NCBI GenBank assembly: GCA_025358475.1 | Contig: JANYJN010000618.1 | Coordinates: 1 to 33,416, forward strand | Origin: Candidatus Solibacter sp. | GTDB taxonomy: Bacteria > Acidobacteriota > Terriglobia > Bryobacterales > Bryobacteraceae | Reading direction: 5' to 3' | Length of the DNA stretch: 33,416 bases | In this document: piece by piece, positions 2,471 through 24,048 of the stretch | Numbering within the stretch: the stretch's first letter is position 1 | How the letters are laid out: each line of letters opens with the position of its first letter | Program-made: the position numbers and the translations under genes | Notes under the pieces: model-generated | The model's input: only the letters and a program-made list of their open reading frames with translations | Database searches by the model: none | What the model was told of the DNA's origin: nothing

Positions 2471-5400
2471 ATGGACCGCTATTGCGAGTTGCGCGCGCGG
2501 GCGGCGGAGTTCGTCGCCGAGTGGGCGCAGTGGGGCGCGGTGGTGGTGCTTGGACCGGTGCGCGCGGCCGCCGACGAAGTTGCCCTGGCGGCCTGCGGCG
2601 ACGCGCTGGTGGGCGTACACCGACTGTCATTCCGCGAACTGGTCGGGGAACTTTCAGCCGCGGAGCTGAACCGGCGCGCGCTGGTGCCGGTGGGCCGGAT
2701 TGTGCGCGAGGCGCTGGCCGCGCGCGTCACGCAGGAGGCAGTGGGCGCCGGCGGCTTGAGCTACTTCGGGCCGGTGGCGGGCTTCCCCGGATTTCCGCGG
2801 GCGCTGGCCCGCACCTTTGAAGAGCTGCGCCTCAACGCGGTACCGCTGGATCAACTCCGCGAGTGCGGGGAATCGGGGGCGGACCTGGCGCGGCTGCTGG
2901 GCGCCTATCAGGACGAGCTCGGGGCGCGCGGCTTCGCCGATCACGCCACGCGGGTGGAACTGGCTCACCTGGGAGCGCGGGAGCAGCTTGGCGACAAGGC
3001 CGTGGTGGCGCTCGATCTGGCGCCGCGAACGCGCGCGGAGCGCGACTTGCTCACCCTCATCCTGAATACGGCACGGGCCCACCTGGATCTGCGGCTGGGA
3101 GCGGGCGATGCGTTGCCGCAATCTCCGCTGCAGGCTTTGCCGTACGCGTCGCTGGAGTTTGTTCCGCAGGCTTCGCCGCAGTCTCCGCTGGAATCTTCGT
3201 CGCAGGCATCGCCGCAGTCTCCGCTGGAATTTGTGCCGCAGTCTCCGTCGCAGGCTCTACCGGACTCTTGGTCGCGGGCTTTGCCCGAAACGTCGCTGGA
3301 ATCGCTGCAGCGATACCTCTTCAGTAGCGAGGTGGTACCGGCGCGTGAGGAAGACGGCAGCGTCGAGATCTTTTCCACTTCGGGCGAGGCGTTAGAGTGC
3401 GTGGAAATTGCGCGGCGCATCGGCGCGGCGGTGGAGGGCGGCGTGCCCTTCGACCAGATCGCCATCGCGGTGCGGTCGCCGGAGCGCTACCAGCCGCTGG
3501 TGATGGAGGGATTGCGCCGCGCGGGAATTCCGGTGCACTGCACGAGGGGCGCGCGGCGGCCCGACGTCGCCGGGCGCAGCTTCCTCGCCTTGCTGCACTG
3601 CGCCGAAGAGCGCCTCTCCGCCACGCGTTTCGCGGAGTATCTCTCACTGGGCCAGATGCCCGAGGACGAGGAACCGCCCACACCCGCCGCCTGGGAACGC
3701 CTGCTGGTGGACGCCGCGGTGATCGGCGGTCCGGACCGCTGGGAAACACGGCTCGATGGCCTGCGCGAGGAGCTACACCACCGCTATGGGGAGGAGGAAG
3801 ACGAAGGCGAACGCGCGCGTCTGGAGCGGCGGATCGCGAGCGTGGAGAACCTGCGCGGCTTCGCCCTACCGGTGATTGGCCGCCTGGCCGCACTGCCCGA
3901 GCGAGCCACCTGGGGCGAATGGATTGCGGCGCTCGGCGATTTGGCCGAATTCACGCTGCGCGAGCCGGAGCGCGTCACGGCGCTGTTGGAGGAACTGGAG
4001 CCGATGTCGCCCATCGGTCCCGTGGGCCTGGCGCAAGTGCTGCTGGTGATGGGTCCGCGGCTGACCACGCTGGCCGTGGAGCCGCGGGACTCGCGCTACG
4101 GCAAAGTGTGGGTAGGCGGCATCACGGAAGCGCGCGGCATGGCGTTCCGCCGGGTGTTCGTGCCGGGTGTGAACGAGGGGTTGTTTCCGCGCCCTCCGGC
4201 GGAAGATCCGCTGCTGCTAGAGGCGCAGCGCGCGGCTTTGGGTTTCGAACCGGGCGTGGAACTGCGCGGCGCATTGCAAACGGACGATACCGAGCTGCTG
4301 CGCATCGCGGCGGCCTGCGCGAGCGAGCGATTCACGCTCTCGTTTTCGCGCCTGGATCTGTTGACCGGGCGCGAACGCGTGCCATCCTTCTACGCCTTCG
4401 CGGCGCATCGGGCGGCGGGCGGGGAGGAGATCGATGTGCGCGAATTCGAGGCGCGCGCCCGCTCCGCCACGCGCACGCGCATCGGCTGGCCGGCGCCGGC
4501 CGACCCCGCCAGTGCCATCGACGACGCGGAATTCGATCTGGCCACCTTGGCCCCGCTGGTGAAGGGTTCGGGGCAGTATCTGAAGAGTCTGCCGGGGCGC
4601 GCGGTGGCGTCCCTGCGGGCGCGCTGGATGCGCTGGCACCAATCGTGGAAGGCGGCCGATGGCCTGTTCATCGAGGAAATCGGCAGCCACGCGCTGAAGG
4701 CCTACCGGCTGACCGAGCGCCCGTGGTCGCCTACGCTGTTGCAGCAGTACGCGCGTTGTCCGTACCGTTTCGCGCTGCGCGGCATCTTCGGCCTGCGTCC
4801 GGCGGATCGCCCCACGGGCATACAGCGCATGGACCCGGCGGAGCGTGGGAATCTCTATCACGCGGTGCAGTTTGAACTCTTGGGAGATCTGGCCGCGGCC
4901 GGCCTGGCGCCGGTCAATGGCGGCAATCTCGCCAAAGCGCTGGAACGGCTCGACGCAATTTTGGAGGTGGAGGCGGCGCGCGCGGAGAGGGATCTGGCGC
5001 CCGCCATCCCGGCGATCTGGCGCGGCGAAGTACAGCAAGTGCATGCCGACCTGCGCGGCTGGCTGCAACAGAAAGCGGCCGTTGAAGCGGATTGGACGCC
5101 CGAATTCCACGAGCTGAGCTTCGGCCTGAAGAATCCGGCGGGCCGCGATCCCCGCAGCCGCCAGGAAGCCGTCACCATCAGCGGCGGCTTCCAACTGCAA
5201 GGCTCCATCGACCTGGTGGAGCGCCACACAAGCGGCATGGTGCGCGTGGTGGATCACAAGACCGGGCGCATTCCGGATCCGCGCCCGGAGACGGTGGGCA
5301 AGGGCGAAGTGCTGCAGCCCACGCTCTACGCGCTGGCCGCCGAAGCGATGCTGGGCGAGCCGGTTTCGGTTGGGCGCCTCTACTATGCCACCATCGCGCA

Positions 5401-5635
5401 GAACTACACGGCGATCGACGTCCCGCTGCACGAGTGGACGCGCCGCCGCGCGCTACACGTGCTGGAAGGGATTAATGGGGCCATCGTCAACGGGACACTC
5501 CCCGCCGCCCCGCGCGAAGGCGGCTGTAAGAACTGCGAGTACCTCCCCATCTGCGGCCCCTACGAAGAGGAGCGCGTGAAGGTAAAGTCGCAGGCCGGGC
5601 TGAAGGGATTGAAGGAAATGCGGGGGTGGCGATGA
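2471..5635 (+). CDS. addB: AddB-like helicase/PD-(D/E)XK exonuclease subunit
   Basis: 1054 aa; C-terminal nuclease region with VVDHKTGRIPDPRP and Fe-S-type cysteines (YARCPYRFALRG ... CKNCEYLPICGPYEEE); followed directly by AddA-like helicase. Confidence 0.85.
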   Translation: MDRYCELRARAAEFVAEWAQWGAVVVLGPVRAAADEVALAACGDALVGVHRLSFRELVGELSAAELNRRALVPVGRIVREALAARVTQEAVGAGGLSYFGPVAGFPGFPRALARTFEELRLNAVPLDQLRECGESGADLARLLGAYQDELGARGFADHATRVELAHLGAREQLGDKAVVALDLAPRTRAERDLLTLILNTARAHLDLRLGAGDALPQSPLQALPYASLEFVPQASPQSPLESSSQASPQSPLEFVPQSPSQALPDSWSRALPETSLESLQRYLFSSEVVPAREEDGSVEIFSTSGEALECVEIARRIGAAVEGGVPFDQIAIAVRSPERYQPLVMEGLRRAGIPVHCTRGARRPDVAGRSFLALLHCAEERLSATRFAEYLSLGQMPEDEEPPTPAAWERLLVDAAVIGGPDRWETRLDGLREELHHRYGEEEDEGERARLERRIASVENLRGFALPVIGRLAALPERATWGEWIAALGDLAEFTLREPERVTALLEELEPMSPIGPVGLAQVLLVMGPRLTTLAVEPRDSRYGKVWVGGITEARGMAFRRVFVPGVNEGLFPRPPAEDPLLLEAQRAALGFEPGVELRGALQTDDTELLRIAAACASERFTLSFSRLDLLTGRERVPSFYAFAAHRAAGGEEIDVREFEARARSATRTRIGWPAPADPASAIDDAEFDLATLAPLVKGSGQYLKSLPGRAVASLRARWMRWHQSWKAADGLFIEEIGSHALKAYRLTERPWSPTLLQQYARCPYRFALRGIFGLRPADRPTGIQRMDPAERGNLYHAVQFELLGDLAAAGLAPVNGGNLAKALERLDAILEVEAARAERDLAPAIPAIWRGEVQQVHADLRGWLQQKAAVEADWTPEFHELSFGLKNPAGRDPRSRQEAVTISGGFQLQGSIDLVERHTSGMVRVVDHKTGRIPDPRPETVGKGEVLQPTLYALAAEAMLGEPVSVGRLYYATIAQNYTAIDVPLHEWTRRRALHVLEGINGAIVNGTLPAAPREGGCKNCEYLPICGPYEEERVKVKSQAGLKGLKEMRGWR
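3173..3230 (+). repeat. 36-bp-period in-frame minisatellite within addB
   Basis: TCGCCGCAGTCTCCGCTGGAAT at 3173-3194 and again at 3209-3230; flanked by degenerate units encoding QASPQSPLE-type repeats (about 3115-3312). Confidence 0.8.
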
Positions 5636-5692
5636 GGTGGCAAATCGTCAGGGAACCACTGCCTGGCCCCGCGAAGCGCATATTAAGCCGGA

Positions 5693-5728
5693 ATGCGACC
5701 ACACCGCGTCTCAGCGGTGAGGTCGCAT
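5693..5728. repeat. Palindromic element between addB and addA
   Basis: ATGCGACCACACCGC-gtctca-GCGGTGAGGTCGCAT; 14 of 15 positions paired. Confidence 0.6.
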
Positions 5729-5786
5729 GCCCGTTTGGTTCCGGCTGCGCAGGGAAAGGGAGAGTCTCTCGGCCCGAGGTCTCCGC

Positions 5787-8700
5787 ATGACGCCGGTTCC
5801 GGTTTCCGATCTGGATCGCAGTTGGGTGGTGGAGGCCTCCGCCGGCACGGGGAAGACCACGGCGCTGGTGGACCGTATGGTGGAAGTTATCGCCGCTGGA
5901 ACGCCGGTGGAAACCATCGTGGCGGTCACCTTCACGCACGCCGCCGCCGGCAACATGAAACTGCGGGTACGCCACGAGCTGGAACGGCGGCGTGCGCGCG
6001 AGCTGGACGCCGATGTTCGCCGCCGTCTAGCCGAAGCGGCGCGCACCCTGGACCGCGCCTTCATCGGCACCATACACGCCTTCTGCGCGCAACTGCTGCG
6101 CTGCCGCCCGGTGGAGGCGCGCATCGATCCGGACTTTCAGGAACTGGCGCAGCCCGACGCGCTGCGCGTCTTCGCCCGCGTGTTCCGCCGTTGGACGGAG
6201 CAGCGTTTGTCCACGCCCAGCCCCGCCCTGTCCCGCGCCTTCGCACGCCTGGGGTGGCGCGCCGAGCGCGACGGCGGCGAGCCGCTGGACGAATTGCGCA
6301 AGGCCGCCTGGAACTTGGCGGAGTGGCGCGATTTCGACGCACCCTGGGCGCAGCGCCCCTTCGCCAGGGACGCCCACATGGCGGCCCTTATCGATAGCGC
6401 CGAGGCCACCCTGCGCATTCCGTCGAAGGGTGGCAGAGCGCTGGAGGACTTCCGCCCCTTGCGCGAATTCGTCCTCCGTGCGCAGCGCGCCCGCGAAGCC
6501 GGACGCGTGGACTCGGCGGTGGTGGAGAGCGAGTTGCTGCGCCTGCCCATCGAGATGCGTTGGGTGAGAGGCCGCGATGCCCTCTATGCCGGCTGGGAAG
6601 AGTTAAAGCTCGCCATCGAGGCCTTCCGCCAGCCGGCCGATGCCGATCTAGCCGCCGGTCTGCGCGAGGAGCTTTGGGAAGTGGTGGGCCTCTATCAGCA
6701 GGAAAAGCAGCGCGCCGGCCAGCTCGATTTCCTGGACCTTCTGCTGTGCGCCCGCGACCTGCTGCGCCACGACGGAGCGCGCGCCGATTTCGCGCGCCTC
6801 TACCAGCGCATCTTCGTCGACGAATTCCAGGACACCGACCCGCTGCAGGCCGAAATCCTGCTGCTGCTGGCCGCCCGGGACCCCGCCGAGCGCGATTGGC
6901 GCAAGGCGCGGCCGGCACCCGGCAAGCTGTACGTGGTGGGCGACCCCAAACAATCCATCTACCGATTCCGCCGCGCCGACGCCCGGCTGTTCCAGCGCAT
7001 CTGCCAGGGGCTGCGCGGCGATGGCGTGGGAACGCGCGAGTTGACTCGCAGTACGCGATCGACGCAGGCGATCCAGAGTTTCGTCAACGCCGCGTTCGAA
7101 CACAGCATGGAGAACTACCTGCCGCTGGAGGGCGGTGGGGAGGGCCCCGAAGATCAGCCCGGTATTGTCGCGCTGCCCATGCCATACCCCTACGGCACGC
7201 GCAATCTCTCTAACGTCAAGATCGACGCCTGCTCGCCCAACGCGGTGGCGGCCTTCATTGAATGGCTCTGCCAGCAGAGCGGCTGGAAGGTGCGCGACCG
7301 CGCGACCGGCACCTGGGTGGGCGTTCGTCCGGAGCACGTCTGCATCCTGTTCCGCCGCTTCACGAATTACGGCACCGATCTGACGCAGGAATATGTGCGC
7401 TGTCTGGAAGCGCGCGGGATCGCGCACCTGCTGGTGGGCTCGAAGAGCTTCCACCGGCGGGAAGAAGTGGGCACGCTGCGCACGGCCTTGCGCGCCATCG
7501 AGTGGCCGGACGATGAGCTGAGCGTTTTCGCCGTGCTGCGCGGCAGCCTGTTCGCGGTGCTGGACGATACGCTACTAAGGTTCAAGAACGCGTACGGCAG
7601 GTTCCACCCGATGATGGAGTTGGCCGAAGAGCCGCAACCCGCTGGCGCCCTGGAACTGGCCGCCGAGTTCGTTCCCATTCGCGAAGGCCTCCAACTGCTG
7701 AGGGAACTGCACCGCCGGCGCAATTACCGGCCCATCGCGGACACCATTAACGGCCTATTGGAAGCCACGCGGGCGCACGCCGGCTTCGCCTTCCGCAAAG
7801 GCGGCGAGAGGGTTCTGGCCAATGTCTACCGCCTGACCGACTTGGCGCGCAGCTTCGAAGCCAGCGGCGCGGCCACCTCTTTCCGCGCCTTCGTGGAATA
7901 CCTGGAGAGCGAGTACGCGGGCTCTGACACCAGCGAAGCGCCGGTGCTGGAGCGGGAGGGCGGCGGCGTGCAGTTGATGACGGTCCACAAGGCCAAGGGC
8001 CTGGAATTCCCGGTGGTGATTCTGGCCGACCTCACGGCGAAGCTCACCGGACCGCAGGGCGCGGACCGCACCAGCGACGCGGAACGGCGCCTGTGCGCGC
8101 AGCGCCTTCTGTGGTGCGCGCCTTGGGAACTGCTGGACGCTGCCGAGACCGAAGCCAAGGCGGACGAAGAGGAAGCGCTGCGCGTGGCCTATGTGGCCGC
8201 CACTCGGGCGCGCGACTTACTGGTGGTGGCGGCCATCGGCGAGGAGGAGCGCGCGGGCGGGTGGCTGAGCCCGCTGCACGATGCGCTCTATCCGGCGAAG
8301 GACGAATGGCGCATCGCGGCGGCGGCGCCCGGCTGTCCCCCGTTCGGCGCGAGCACTGTTTTGAACCGCCCGCCGGATCAAGAGGAGGAAGTCTCCGTCC
8401 GGCCGGGCCTGCACTCTCCCAAGGCGGGCGGGCACCAGGTGGTGTGGTTCGACCCGGCGGTACTCGGCCTGCACGCGGCGCCGACGGATGGCGTGGAGAA
8501 CGAAGACGTATTGAAGGGAACGCCTGAGCAGGCGGCAGAAGGGCTGCGCCTTTACCAGCAATGGCGCGAACGCCGCACGGCCCGCATCGCGCAAGGCAGC
8601 GTGCCGAGTTTCCGCACCAGCACGGCCGAAACGCTGGGACGCGCGGCGGGGGAGGCGGTTCGGGTGGAGACCATCACGCTTCCCTTTGCCCCGTGCCGTC

Positions 8701-9107
8701 CTGGCGGCCGGAAGTTCGGGCGCCTGGTACACGATATCTTGCAGCACGCGGGCGCCGGGGAGGATGTGGACGCGCTCGGCGTCATCTGGGGCCGCCGACA
8801 TGGCGCTGGCGAATTCGAGCGCACGGCGGCGGTGAAGGTAGCGCGCGCCGCGCTGGCGCATGACGCGATGGCGGTCCCGGCCGGCGCCCGGCGCTATCGC
8901 GAGCTCCCCGTGATGGTGCGCCTGGAAGACGGCACGCTGGTGGACGGGCGCATCGATTTCGCCTGGTCGGACGGAGAGAGCTGGACGGTGATCGATTACA
9001 AGACGGATCGCCAGGAGAAGCGGAACGTGGCGCAAGTGCAGGTGTACGCCCTGGCATTACAGCGCGCCACCGGGCTTCCCGTGCGCGGCATCGTGCTGGA
9101 AGTGTAG
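5787..9107 (+). CDS. addA: AddA-like UvrD/Rep superfamily helicase-nuclease
   Basis: Walker A VEASAGTGKTTALVDRM, VDEFQDTDPLQAEIL, VGDPKQSIYRFRRAD, VQLMTVHKAKGLEFPVVIL, RVAYVAATRARDLLVV, C-terminal VIDYKTDR; ATG at 5787 precedes the helicase domain (ORF track starts at 5727). Confidence 0.92.
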   Translation: MTPVPVSDLDRSWVVEASAGTGKTTALVDRMVEVIAAGTPVETIVAVTFTHAAAGNMKLRVRHELERRRARELDADVRRRLAEAARTLDRAFIGTIHAFCAQLLRCRPVEARIDPDFQELAQPDALRVFARVFRRWTEQRLSTPSPALSRAFARLGWRAERDGGEPLDELRKAAWNLAEWRDFDAPWAQRPFARDAHMAALIDSAEATLRIPSKGGRALEDFRPLREFVLRAQRAREAGRVDSAVVESELLRLPIEMRWVRGRDALYAGWEELKLAIEAFRQPADADLAAGLREELWEVVGLYQQEKQRAGQLDFLDLLLCARDLLRHDGARADFARLYQRIFVDEFQDTDPLQAEILLLLAARDPAERDWRKARPAPGKLYVVGDPKQSIYRFRRADARLFQRICQGLRGDGVGTRELTRSTRSTQAIQSFVNAAFEHSMENYLPLEGGGEGPEDQPGIVALPMPYPYGTRNLSNVKIDACSPNAVAAFIEWLCQQSGWKVRDRATGTWVGVRPEHVCILFRRFTNYGTDLTQEYVRCLEARGIAHLLVGSKSFHRREEVGTLRTALRAIEWPDDELSVFAVLRGSLFAVLDDTLLRFKNAYGRFHPMMELAEEPQPAGALELAAEFVPIREGLQLLRELHRRRNYRPIADTINGLLEATRAHAGFAFRKGGERVLANVYRLTDLARSFEASGAATSFRAFVEYLESEYAGSDTSEAPVLEREGGGVQLMTVHKAKGLEFPVVILADLTAKLTGPQGADRTSDAERRLCAQRLLWCAPWELLDAAETEAKADEEEALRVAYVAATRARDLLVVAAIGEEERAGGWLSPLHDALYPAKDEWRIAAAAPGCPPFGASTVLNRPPDQEEEVSVRPGLHSPKAGGHQVVWFDPAVLGLHAAPTDGVENEDVLKGTPEQAAEGLRLYQQWRERRTARIAQGSVPSFRTSTAETLGRAAGEAVRVETITLPFAPCRPGGRKFGRLVHDILQHAGAGEDVDALGVIWGRRHGAGEFERTAAVKVARAALAHDAMAVPAGARRYRELPVMVRLEDGTLVDGRIDFAWSDGESWTVIDYKTDRQEKRNVAQVQVYALALQRATGLPVRGIVLEV

Positions 9108-19573: not shown

Positions 19574-19975
19574 TTGCAGGTAATCAGGGCACTCTCGATC
19601 TTTCTCAGCTACGTCTTTCACGGGTTGTTGTGTCTGATATTGTTTGCCATTTCCAGCCTCGCGATAGCCGCCGGCGCCCAGACGCTGCATCTGGGTATGC
19701 TTCCCTGGACGGGTTCCACGTTGTTGTACACGCTGTTCTTTGGCTCTTTGGTAGGCCTGGTGACGCTGGCCCTGGCCATCAAGGGGAGGTGGCGCCCGTT
19801 GTTTTTTGTGTGGAGCCTGGCGGTGGCGCTGCTGCTGCTGAAGGGCTACATCTTCAGCGGCTATCGCTTCAGCCCAGGCGAGTTTGGCACGGCGATGTAC
19901 CTGATCGGGGGATCATTGATCGCGCTGCCCGGCTCCTGGATGCGGATGGGCCGCCAGGCTGGGGCGCGTCGCTAA
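19574..19975 (+). CDS. Small integral membrane protein of unknown function
   Basis: About 133 aa with several hydrophobic segments; AGGAGG SD at 19560-19565 suits TTG 19574 better than the GTG 19565 of the ORF track. Confidence 0.6.
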   Translation: MQVIRALSIFLSYVFHGLLCLILFAISSLAIAAGAQTLHLGMLPWTGSTLLYTLFFGSLVGLVTLALAIKGRWRPLFFVWSLAVALLLLKGYIFSGYRFSPGEFGTAMYLIGGSLIALPGSWMRMGRQAGARR

Positions 19976-20002
19976 GGCGCCGCATCTGCCAGTCGCAGTA
20001 TT

Positions 20003-20034
20003 GAAAACGGACAGCGGGTTTTCGAAAACGGACA
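20003..20034 (+). promoter_or_regulatory. Pair of direct GAAAACGGACA sites, candidate enhancer-binding-protein UAS
   Basis: GAAAACGGACA at 20003-20013 and 20024-20034, period exactly 21 bp; lies about 100-130 bp upstream of the predicted sigma-54 TSS. Confidence 0.5.
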
Positions 20035-20108
20035 TCCAGTAACCAGCGGCTGGACGACAATCCGGCAAAGCTCCTGTATTTCCCCCAATAGAAGATGAAA
20101 ACCCCCTA

Positions 20109-20124
20109 TGGAACGGCAATTGCA
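20109..20124 (+). promoter_or_regulatory. Candidate sigma-54 (-24/-12) promoter for the tandem tolC genes
   Basis: TGGAACGGCAATTGCA versus consensus TGGCACR-N4-TTGCW: GG-N10-GC spacing exact, one mismatch in the -24 element; predicted TSS about 20135, followed by AGGG SD and ATG 20153. Confidence 0.6.
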
Positions 20125-20152
20125 CGGAAGCCGTGTTCAGCTTCAGGGAAAA

Positions 20153-22072
20153 ATGAGTCATTTCCGAAACGCCTTCGCCGTGGTCCTGCTTGTCTCGGGC
20201 TCCACCATTCTTGCCCAATCGTCTGAAGTTTCCATCCAAACGCCGGCGCCGCCGAAGTACGTGGGGCGGTGGCTGAAGCCGTTCCATCTGGAAAAACGGG
20301 TGGTGGCAGCGGCCAAGCTGAGCAACTCGCCGCGGCTGGAATCGCTGGTGCGGGGGGGGAATCTCTATCTTTCGGTGCAGGATGTGATCGCCCTGGCGCT
20401 GGAGAATAATCTGGATATCGCGGTGCAGCGCTACAGCCCGTTCCTGGCGCGCGAAGTGCTGCGGCGCGCCGAGGGCGGAGGGTTTCTGCGGCAGGTGGAT
20501 ACACCGGTGGCCGCGGGACCAGCCTCTGTCAGCACGGCGGGAATCAGCATCAACGGGAATGGGCTGGGCGGCGGCGGCGGGCTGAGCGGCGGCGGCGGAA
20601 TAGTCAGCCAGATCGGCCCGGTGCCTCCCAGCCTGGATCCCAACCTGTACCTCAGCTTCAGCGCCGGGCACAACACCACGCCCTTGACCAACACCCTGTT
20701 AAATCAAACCACGGCCTTGACGCAGGGTTACCGGCAGTTCGTGGCTCAGTACACGCAGCAATTCCAGACCGGGACCAGTGGGAGCGTCACGTTTGTCAAC
20801 ACGCGCAGCCTGCTCAACAGCTCCACGCCGCTTTTCAACCCTTCGATCAGCGGCTTCTTCGACGTGCAGATCAACCAGAACCTGCTACAAGGGATGAGCC
20901 TGGGCGTCAACAATCGCAATATCCGGGTGGCCAAGAACAATCTGAAGGTGAGCAACCTTCAAGTGAAGCTGCAGGTGGTGACCACGGTGAGCGCGGTGCT
21001 CAACCTGTACTGGGACCTGGTGAGCTTCAACGAAGCCGTGCGCATCAAAGAGCAGGCGCTAGGGACGGCGCAGAAGCTGTACGACGGCAACCGGAGGCAG
21101 GTGGAGATCGGGGCCTTGCCGGCGATTGAAGTGACGCGCGCCGCGGCGGAGGTATCGGCCAGCAAAGAGGACCTGTTGATCGCGCAGACCAACCTGGCGC
21201 AGCAGGAGATCGTGCTAAAGAACGCGCTCAACCGCAACAGCATGCAGAACGTGTGGCTGGACGACGTACACATCATCCCGCTGGACCGCATTGAGGTGCC
21301 AAAGACGGAGGAGATCCGGCCGGTGGCGGACCTGATTCAGGAAGCCGTGGAGAATCGCCTGGAAATTGAGCGGAGCAAGATCAATCTTGACAGTTCGAAG
21401 ATCCTGCTGAAGGGTGACAAAAACGGCCTGCTGCCGAACCTGCAGGCCTTCGCGGAGTTGACCAACCACGGACTGGCCGGCCCGTCGAACCCGCTGTACA
21501 ACAATTGCTGCGGGGCGCCCAATGGGTATTTTATCGGTGGCGACGCCAATGTGCTGGCGCAGATTCTGCGGCGCAATTTTCCGGACTATTCGGCGGGTTT
21601 TTCGCTAAATCTTCCGTTCCGGAACCGGGCGTCGCAGGCAGACTACGTGACAGACCAACTGCAATTGCGGCAGACCGAACTGCAGTTGCAGCGCACCCTG
21701 AACCAGGTACGCGTCGACGTGAAGACGGCGGTGATCGGGCTGGAACAGGCACGGGCGCGGGATCAGACCGCGGTGGATACGCGGGCACTGGCCGAAGAGA
21801 GCCTCAAGGCCGAACAAAGCCGGTTCCATTATGGGGTGGCGACGGTGGCGCAGGTGATTCAGGCACAGAAGGAACTGGCGCAAAGCCAGGACGGCGAAGT
21901 GCAGTCCATGGCCAATTACACGCACGCGCGGATCGCCTTCGATCTGGCGATGGGGCGCACGCTGGAGGTCAATCACATCTCGATGGAGGAAGCGCTGGCG
22001 GGGCAGGTGCAGAGAGAATCCGTCATACCGGCCACGCTGCCGGCGCCGCGCGCGCAGGGGGTCGGGAAATGA
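20153..22072 (+). CDS. TolC family outer-membrane efflux protein (copy 1)
   Basis: Signal peptide FRNAFAVVLLVSGSTILAQ; TolC-like coiled-coil repeats (VLNLYWDLVSFNEAVRIKEQALGTAQKLYDGNRRQVEIGALPAIEVTRAAAEV); ATG 20153 has AGGG SD; ORF-track start 20108 overlaps the predicted promoter. Confidence 0.88.
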   Translation: MSHFRNAFAVVLLVSGSTILAQSSEVSIQTPAPPKYVGRWLKPFHLEKRVVAAAKLSNSPRLESLVRGGNLYLSVQDVIALALENNLDIAVQRYSPFLAREVLRRAEGGGFLRQVDTPVAAGPASVSTAGISINGNGLGGGGGLSGGGGIVSQIGPVPPSLDPNLYLSFSAGHNTTPLTNTLLNQTTALTQGYRQFVAQYTQQFQTGTSGSVTFVNTRSLLNSSTPLFNPSISGFFDVQINQNLLQGMSLGVNNRNIRVAKNNLKVSNLQVKLQVVTTVSAVLNLYWDLVSFNEAVRIKEQALGTAQKLYDGNRRQVEIGALPAIEVTRAAAEVSASKEDLLIAQTNLAQQEIVLKNALNRNSMQNVWLDDVHIIPLDRIEVPKTEEIRPVADLIQEAVENRLEIERSKINLDSSKILLKGDKNGLLPNLQAFAELTNHGLAGPSNPLYNNCCGAPNGYFIGGDANVLAQILRRNFPDYSAGFSLNLPFRNRASQADYVTDQLQLRQTELQLQRTLNQVRVDVKTAVIGLEQARARDQTAVDTRALAEESLKAEQSRFHYGVATVAQVIQAQKELAQSQDGEVQSMANYTHARIAFDLAMGRTLEVNHISMEEALAGQVQRESVIPATLPAPRAQGVGK

Positions 22073-24048
22073 GGATGTCCCTGCACCGCGGGGACGCGGA
22101 GGGCGCGGAGATAAGCGCGGAGAAAACCAAGACAGGCCCGGTCCCAGCGTCGCTTGGATGGACAAGGCGGAGCCTTATCCCACTGCTGGCCGCGACCTGC
22201 CTGGTGGCGGAGTGCGGCGCACAGAATCTGCCGTTCCCCGTGGAGAAGCCGCCGGGACCGGCGTTCCTGCGTCCTTACCGGGTGCAGCCGGTGCCGGGCG
22301 TCCGGTTGCACAATTCGGGCCGGGTCAACAGCCTGCTGCGCGCGGGGAAGCTGTACCTGACGGTGCGGGACGCCATCGCGCTGGCGATTGAGAATAACCT
22401 GGGGCTAGAGATCGACAGGTACAGTCCGCTGCTGGCGCAATCGTCGTTGGAACGCGCGCAGGCCGGCGGACCGGTGCGCGGGGTGCCGAGCGCAAGCGCG
22501 CAGGTTTCCAGCGTCAATGCCGGGGTGGGCGTGAACGGCAGCGCGCAGAGCGCCGGATTGGGCAGTGGCGGGGGAGGCGGCAGCGGGGGATCGAGCGGCA
22601 ACGCGGCCATCCAGCAGGTGGGCGCCGTCACGCCGAATCTAGATCCGATTCTACAGAGCACCACCACGCAGGCGCACCTTACGCAGCCGCAGGCCAACAC
22701 GGTATTGAGCCAGACGAATGCCCTGATTCAATCGGTGCGCACCACGAATACCACTTTGCAGATGGGGTTGCTCAGCGGGGGCGTGGTGCAGTACCGCAAT
22801 TACGAGCAGTCTCTCAAGGAAAACTCGCCGAGCGACAGTCTGAATCCGGCGGTGGGCCCGCACATGGATTTGGCGTTCCAGCACGGCCTTTTGCGGGGCT
22901 TCGGCGTCAAGTTGAATGACCGGGGCATCCGCATAGCCAAGCTCAACACGGGCGGGTCGCTGGAACAGTTCCGTTCGCAATTGCTGGATCTGGTGGCCAA
23001 CGTTCTCAACAGCTATTGGAACCTGGTGAGCGCGAGCGAGGAATTGAAGGCACGGCAGTATTCCTGGGAGAATGCACAGAAGTTCTACCAGGACACGCAG
23101 AAGGAAATTGCGGCGGGAGCGATTCCGCGCGTGGAGTTGAGCCGGGCGGCGGTCGAGGTGGCCACGCGGCGGCAGGATCTGGTGGTGGCCCTGGCGAACT
23201 TGCGGCTGCGCGAGAACTCGCTGAAAGAGCTACTGGTGCGCACGCCGGACGCAACGGTAGAGGCGGCGGAGATCATCGCGCTGGACCGCATAGAGATTCC
23301 CGATACGGACGATCTGCCTCCGCTGCGGCAACTGGTGGCTCTGGCGATGGCCAAGCGGCCGGATGTAGCGGTGTCGAAGTTGCGGGACCAGACGGCGGAG
23401 ATCTCGCTCGCGGGGACGCAGAATCCGTTATTGCCCAGCTTGCAGGTGGCCGGGCAAACCTTCAACCGGGGCGTGGCCGGGACGCCGCAAGCCAGCAGCG
23501 GAGACGCCCCGAACCCGTATTTCGTGGGTGGATACGGCACGGCGCTGGGGCAGGTCTTGCGGCGCAATTTCCCCAACTACCGTGGCAGCGTCTCCATTTC
23601 GGCCTCTTTGGGGAACCGGACGGCGCAGGGGGATTACGGGATCGATCAACTGCAATTCCGGCAGTCGCAGATTACCCGGCAGCGCGACACGAATGCCATC
23701 GTGGTGGACATTGCGGCGCGCATGAGCGCACTGCGGCAGGCACGGTCGCGGCACGCGGCGGCGGTGAATACGCGGACGCTACAGGAGCAGTTGCTGGCGG
23801 CGGACCGGGAGAAATTCTCGTCGGGGATCGCCACGTTCAACGACATCATCAACGACCAGCGGGCTTTGGTAGTGGCGCAGATTTCCGAGGTCAATGCGCT
23901 GGCGGCCTATGCCCATGCGCGGGTCTCGCTGGATCAGACGCTGGGCGAGACGCTGGAGCGGAACCAGGTGTCGCTGGAGGAGGGCTTGAGTGGGCGCGTG
24001 GCGCGGGAATCCAAGGCGCCCGAGGTGGCGGTGGGGGCGAAGGAATAG
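22069..24048 (+). CDS. TolC family outer-membrane efflux protein (copy 2)
   Basis: ATGA overlap with copy 1; VLNSYWNLVSASEELKARQYSWENAQKFYQDTQKEIAAGAIPRVELSRAAVEVATRRQDL; same domain order as copy 1. Confidence 0.86.
   Translation: MRMSLHRGDAEGAEISAEKTKTGPVPASLGWTRRSLIPLLAATCLVAECGAQNLPFPVEKPPGPAFLRPYRVQPVPGVRLHNSGRVNSLLRAGKLYLTVRDAIALAIENNLGLEIDRYSPLLAQSSLERAQAGGPVRGVPSASAQVSSVNAGVGVNGSAQSAGLGSGGGGGSGGSSGNAAIQQVGAVTPNLDPILQSTTTQAHLTQPQANTVLSQTNALIQSVRTTNTTLQMGLLSGGVVQYRNYEQSLKENSPSDSLNPAVGPHMDLAFQHGLLRGFGVKLNDRGIRIAKLNTGGSLEQFRSQLLDLVANVLNSYWNLVSASEELKARQYSWENAQKFYQDTQKEIAAGAIPRVELSRAAVEVATRRQDLVVALANLRLRENSLKELLVRTPDATVEAAEIIALDRIEIPDTDDLPPLRQLVALAMAKRPDVAVSKLRDQTAEISLAGTQNPLLPSLQVAGQTFNRGVAGTPQASSGDAPNPYFVGGYGTALGQVLRRNFPNYRGSVSISASLGNRTAQGDYGIDQLQFRQSQITRQRDTNAIVVDIAARMSALRQARSRHAAAVNTRTLQEQLLAADREKFSSGIATFNDIINDQRALVVAQISEVNALAAYAHARVSLDQTLGETLERNQVSLEEGLSGRVARESKAPEVAVGAKE
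22157..22183 (+). repeat. Copy of the same short repeat inside tolC copy 2
   Basis: GATGGACAAGGCGGAGCCTTATCCCAC versus GATGCACAAGGCGGAGCCTTACGCCAC at 9253. Confidence 0.6.

Follow-up and report, generated by a model that had tools for sequence, protein, structure and literature searches.

The regulons of sigma-54 outside Proteobacteria are poorly known. Sigma-54 has been tied to the cell exterior (Francke 2011, PMC3162934), in a text that makes no mention of TolC, MacB, Acidobacteria or Bacteroidetes. More recently, sigma-54 promoters were predicted for FtsX-like ABC permeases in Bacteroidia, Opitutia and gamma-Proteobacteria, and that report claims the first evidence linking sigma-54 with FtsX-like permeases (PLoS One 2025, PMC12316311). 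Sigma-54 control of FtsX permeases had already been predicted in 2025; the enhancer site and the nominated regulator described here appear to be new, as no earlier report of either was found in the literature searched, which covers subscription journals thinly. Starting from a pair of TolC genes in Candidatus Solibacter sp., we define a precise enhancer motif, nominate a regulator together with its kinase and give a short list of targets.

Genomic context and promoter of the TolC pair

The window, meaning the whole stretch of 33,416 nucleotides that was analyzed, is contig C227 of a 5.5 Mb genome in 818 contigs (G000), and the promoter elements and TolC genes described below are on its forward strand. 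The genes 5' of the TolC pair encode, in order, enoyl-CoA hydratase, lumazine synthase, NusB, an S41 protease, a short-chain dehydrogenase and a small protein ending at 19975. TolC-1 (20153-22072; Pfam OEP, 3.4e-34) is an outer membrane efflux protein with a signal peptide, and TolC-2 (22069-24048; Pfam OEP, 3.9e-24) is a second one, whose start overlaps the TolC-1 stop via ATGA, as read in the sequence. The annotated N-terminus of TolC-2, MRMSLHRGDAEGAEISAEKTKT (22069-22170), is unlike a signal peptide; it may be translated repeat DNA, with the true start further downstream. Of the parts of a MacAB-TolC system, the window has only these two outer-membrane proteins; among the window proteins tested, neither a pump or adaptor gene beside them, nor a transposase, nor a transcription regulator was found, the last in agreement with the preliminary description, which had noted that no regulator is linked to the pair. 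Elsewhere in the window (2471-9107), a PD-(D/E)XK nuclease protein adjoins a UvrD-type helicase-nuclease, as an AddB/AddA-like recombination pair.

When the sequence was read again, all the promoter elements of the preliminary description were found where it had placed them. The -24/-12 element, TGGAACGGCAATTGCA (20109-20124), has the GG-N10-GC geometry claimed for it, with one mismatch to TGGCACR-N4-TTGCW and an A at -23. It is the sole match in the window with at most one mismatch, and its score was equaled by 1 of 5,000 dinucleotide shuffles of this intergenic region; since about 0.65 equally good matches are expected per whole window, the match alone is not proof. The single-sequence match is only moderately unusual; the case rests on comparison. 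The geometry of the element would place the transcription start at 20135. The Shine-Dalgarno sequence AGGG (20145-20148), kept or AGGA in G008, G005 and G001, stands before the ATG at 20153, and the conservation of both in relatives upholds this ATG as the start codon. The start at 20108 given by the open reading frame track, which by the preliminary description would lie inside the promoter, is not an ATG in relatives, and translation from it is ruled out, as in G006 and G007 the extended frame is either closed by a stop codon or shifted. A scan of 19900-20250 for the classical sigma-70 consensus, the only class that it covered, found no sigma-70-like promoter.

Two upstream sites lie 75 bp or more before the -24 element, as candidate activator sites. 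Site 1, GTATTG-AAAA-CGGACA (19998-20013), is centered at about -129 from the predicted start and contains the core GAAAACGGACA at 20003-20013, invariant in four of the five same-genus genomes; site 2, TTTTCG-AAAA-CGGACA (20019-20034), follows 21 bp after it, centered at about -108, with the same core at 20024-20034, invariant in all five. Both cores recur in other genera. By sequence comparison, the sites are degenerate TGTCCG-N4-CGGACA dyads, in which the acidobacterial copies keep the right half and have a degenerate left half, and the functional unit would be wider than 11 bp. The two-turn phasing proposed earlier holds at 21 bp in the genus but is only approximate beyond it, the distance being 20 or 21 bp in orthologs from other genera. 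Likewise, the palindrome GTTTTCGAAAAC is present at 20018-20029 as described but is incidental, and its lack of conservation outside the genus rules it out as an operator.

The paired core occurs once in the genome, along with three single copies of GAAAACGGACA on C55, C59 and C671, which were discarded as sites because they lie in coding-type sequence and have no partner. A genus-wide pair search allowing three mismatches gave no second convincing pair in this genome, so the regulon looks small, and beyond the TolC locus its hits were mostly at control level. When the search in G000 was extended to TGTCCG-N4-CGGACA with one mismatch, 16 places were found versus 13 in the control, too small a difference to be informative.

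Conservation within the genus

The same-genus comparison comprised five genomes, namely the window genome and G008, G005, G001 and G007, and in the latter four the paired sites and TGGAAnGGCAATTGC contrast clearly with the DNA around them. Invariant columns make up 28 of 34 in the sites with their spacer and 14 of 16 in the -24/-12 element, where GG and GC are kept in all genomes; the corresponding counts are 13/74 for the DNA between sites and promoter, 5/28 for the leader and 61/98 for the start of the coding region. The footprint has 42 of 50 columns invariant versus 18 of 102 in the remaining intergenic DNA (Fisher p=2e-15, a guide only, given that columns are non-independent). The sites and the -24/-12 element are the most conserved DNA of the promoter, and exceed even the adjacent coding DNA. 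In G007, some 19 inserted bases, close to two turns of the helix, separate the sites from the promoter, and both sites and the -24/-12 element are present in G006 as well. A second pair of sites, accompanied by TGGCACACCGCCTGCT, is located in G008 (L240/L189, G008:C537) 5' of a gene for an Oar-like outer-membrane protein (named by inspection).

Other genera and association with efflux genes

The TolC-1 orthologs of G036, G022, G169 and L083 are preceded by GAAAnCGGACA-like pairs 20 or 21 bp apart and then GG-N10-GC, while in G028 a single perfect dyad, TGTCCGCCAGCGGACA, precedes TGGTACGAGAGTTGCC. GG-N10-GC occurs in all 11 orthologous promoters listed, at varying distance from the sites; the site-promoter combination is absent from the more distant TolC homologs examined. 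The sites of G036 have the TolC pair on one side and a divergent MacB_PCD/FtsX permease on the other, and in G096 a site pair faces a MacB_PCD/FtsX-type permease, with TGGCAACACGGCTGCC before the permease gene. Searching for GAAAnCGGACA-N8-12-GAAAnCGGACA recovered a single pair from each of 4 of 150 family genomes, in every case facing a TolC pair or a MacB-like permease, compared with 0 of 150 for the reversed control.

A scan of species genomes for the motif pair gave at least 118 loci. Efflux genes (TolC, HlyD, MacB, FtsX) were present at 11 of the 14 listed loci with a good -24/-12 element versus 15 of 104 without one (Fisher p=2e-6), a generous value, considering that the loci were chosen by motif and that several of the 14 are closely related to the window locus. 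Independent support for the association comes, at the level of sequence, from the Bacteroidota and Gemmatimonadota cases. HlyD-FtsX-MacB operons follow TGGCACGGGATTTGCT in Tannerella (L095), TGGCACGGGGTTTGCC in Parabacteroides (L128), TGGCACGGCGTTGGCT in Spirosoma (L089) and TGGCACGGTTTTGGCA at L180; in Gemmatimonadota (L151), TGGCAGGGTATTTGCT precedes an FtsX permease. The Bacteroidota sequences carry the full site, TGTCCG-AAAN-CGGACA, with strong TGGCAC..TTTGC elements following the pair; at some Chitinophagaceae loci, the pair is directly 5' of an FtsX-type gene and the TGGCA elements miss the strict GG-N10-GC rule. The combination of CGGACA with TGGCAC..TGC in 37 genomes was little above control, except at the regulator's own promoter (G008/G003, see below) and at the Oar-like gene of G008.

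The same scan returned GAAAnCGGACA pairs with a 12-bp spacer at contig ends of Thiorhodococcus (L075, L081, L108, L143 and L173, base 31-64), which suggests a multicopy repeat unrelated to the TolC promoter.

A candidate regulator

The organism has rpoN (Sigma54_DBD, 3.7e-57, on C691) and about 19 bacterial enhancer-binding proteins (bEBPs), among which a candidate for the matching activator was found on C181 (G000:C181:11361-12755), unlinked to the window. Its product has Response_reg, Sigma54_activat and HTH_8 domains (receiver, AAA+ sigma-54 interaction and Fis-type helix-turn-helix), and its gene adjoins that of a PAS-type histidine kinase with PAS and HATPase domains. The activator loop reads GAFTDA in the C181 protein (L058), G036 and Spirosoma (L089), and GAFTGA in G048; the replacement of GAFTGA by GAFTDA may alter the contact with sigma-54.

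Several linkages in other genomes point to this protein. In Spirosoma (L089), a gene for an NtrC-type bEBP lies some 2 kb away from the sites. Of the G000 bEBPs, the C181 protein is the best match to its product (45% across the whole length), and the two have similar recognition helices (LSRxALYRRL). A tree built from 18 bEBPs of G000, plus six that are linked or orthologous, unites C181 and its orthologs with the Spirosoma proteins in a single clade (support 100/99); the bEBPs encoded beside the motif in Spirosoma and in another acidobacterium belong to it. In G048 and G050, a series of genes for HlyD, ADOP-type permeases, MacB ATPases and TolC closes with a C181 ortholog, the kinase coming next, and another ortholog follows MacB ATPases and HlyD in G016. 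Within 8 kb, the acidobacterial L102 unites the bEBP (68%) and the kinase (62%) with a site pair and a MacB ATPase.

The regulator gene itself is preceded by CGGACA about 40-70 bp before GG-N10-GC in G008, G003, G005, G004, G009, G028, G035 and G036, with a near version in G012 and a weaker one in G006. The site at this promoter, GTCCCATTnnCGGACA, shares its right half with the TolC sites and not its left half. As the G000 contig ends at the start of the C181 regulator gene, the own-promoter reading comes from relatives; the combination of CGGACA and GG-N10-GC was not found at the other bEBP loci of G000.

Interpretation

The conservation of its elements, the association of the paired site with TolC and MacB genes and the presence of rpoN support the sigma-54 control of the TolC pair put forward in the preliminary description, and on these sequence comparisons it is very likely that the promoter exists and depends on sigma-54. 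The assignment of the regulator to C181 is well supported but indirect. Taken as a whole, the reading that the TolC pair is expressed from a sigma-54 promoter, activated via two upstream sites by an NtrC/ZraR-type regulator that is most probably C181, has a good probability of being correct. For its signal, phosphorylation, binding, start site, substrate and pump partner, we infer the following course. The promoter at 20109-20124 would transcribe the TolC pair; an envelope or toxic-compound signal would render the PAS-type histidine kinase active, and the phosphorylated C181-type regulator would bind the paired sites, form an ATPase ring and open the promoter. The extra TolC channels might then serve MacB/ADOP-type exporters encoded elsewhere.

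The alternative that survives best retains the sigma-54 promoter as described and has a bEBP other than C181 as its activator. With some 19 bEBPs in the genome and C181 unlinked to the pair in G000, there are other proteins to choose from, and regulator and TolC pair co-occur imperfectly, G004 having a C181-type regulator and no TolC-1 ortholog, and the incompletely assembled G007 showing the opposite. G002 has lost the TolC pair: at L235 (G002:C50), the upstream gene runs into a decayed pair of sites joined to what is left of TolC-2. A close ortholog of C181 was not found in G002, which fits the regulator assignment even if the association is imperfect. Against another bEBP, only the C181 clade has been found linked to the motif elsewhere, with the motif core at its own promoter, and the other bEBP loci of G000 are devoid of CGGACA with GG-N10-GC. 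We regard a different activator as unlikely.

Less probable still, and in our view quite improbable, is that the sites are operators of another class of regulator, with a sigma-70-type start and a fortuitous -24/-12 match. The A at -23, the frequency at which such matches are expected per window and a start deduced from geometry would all be compatible with it; however, GG-N10-GC is kept in 11 of 11 orthologous promoters at varying distance from the sites, a strong TGGCAC..TTTGC follows the same pair in Bacteroidota, and no site resembling the classical sigma-70 consensus was found in 19900-20250. That the tandem GAAAnCGGACA copies are the remnant of a mobile-element end or a dispersed repeat, as the many 12-bp-spacer loci resembling multicopy repeats near contig ends (e.g., Thiorhodococcus) could suggest, is rejected for the TolC locus, where each genome has one copy, at the orthologous place and with spacer and flanks unlike those of the 12-bp-spacer loci, where no transposase was found among the window proteins tested and where the sites are more conserved than the adjacent coding DNA.

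Beyond sigma-54 control through C181 at this locus, we lean, with some reserve, towards an ancient and unnamed sigma-54 two-component system, made of a TGTCCG-N4-CGGACA regulator and a PAS kinase, that would control MacB/FtsX-type exporters and TolC channels across Acidobacteriota, Bacteroidota and Gemmatimonadota. If so, this envelope-export regulon would have been overlooked because the regulator is unlinked from its targets in many genomes. An isolated TolC pair could then share its regulation with exporters encoded elsewhere, and the motif could serve to assign export regulons in Bacteroidota and in many uncultured Acidobacteriota.

Comparison with known systems

The system proposed here resembles the promoters predicted in PMC12316311 in having sigma-54 promoters 5' of FtsX/MacB-type genes, Bacteroidia included, and differs in that the text of that report leaves Acidobacteria, TolC and MacB unmentioned and its available passages name no upstream-site motif or activator. 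With the sigma-54/bEBP systems of the NtrC, ZraR and AtoC type it shares the -24/-12 element, the paired dyads 100-130 bp upstream and a response-regulator bEBP with a histidine kinase, whereas C181 has GAFTDA and not GAFTGA, and the targets are TolC/MacB genes. The ZraR, AtoC and PrsR models are the best-scoring ones for the C181 protein, yet in NCBIfam it stays below every equivalog cut-off (best 369.7 bits versus 760; PrsR, 366.1 versus 502.6), so that it is not ZraR, AtoC, PrsR or NtrC itself. The likeness to MacAB-TolC lies in the TolC-family proteins encoded here; the adaptor and MacB genes of such an operon, absent among the window proteins tested, are present under the same motif elsewhere, in related operons carrying HlyD/MacA, MacB ATPase and FtsX/MacB_PCD permeases.
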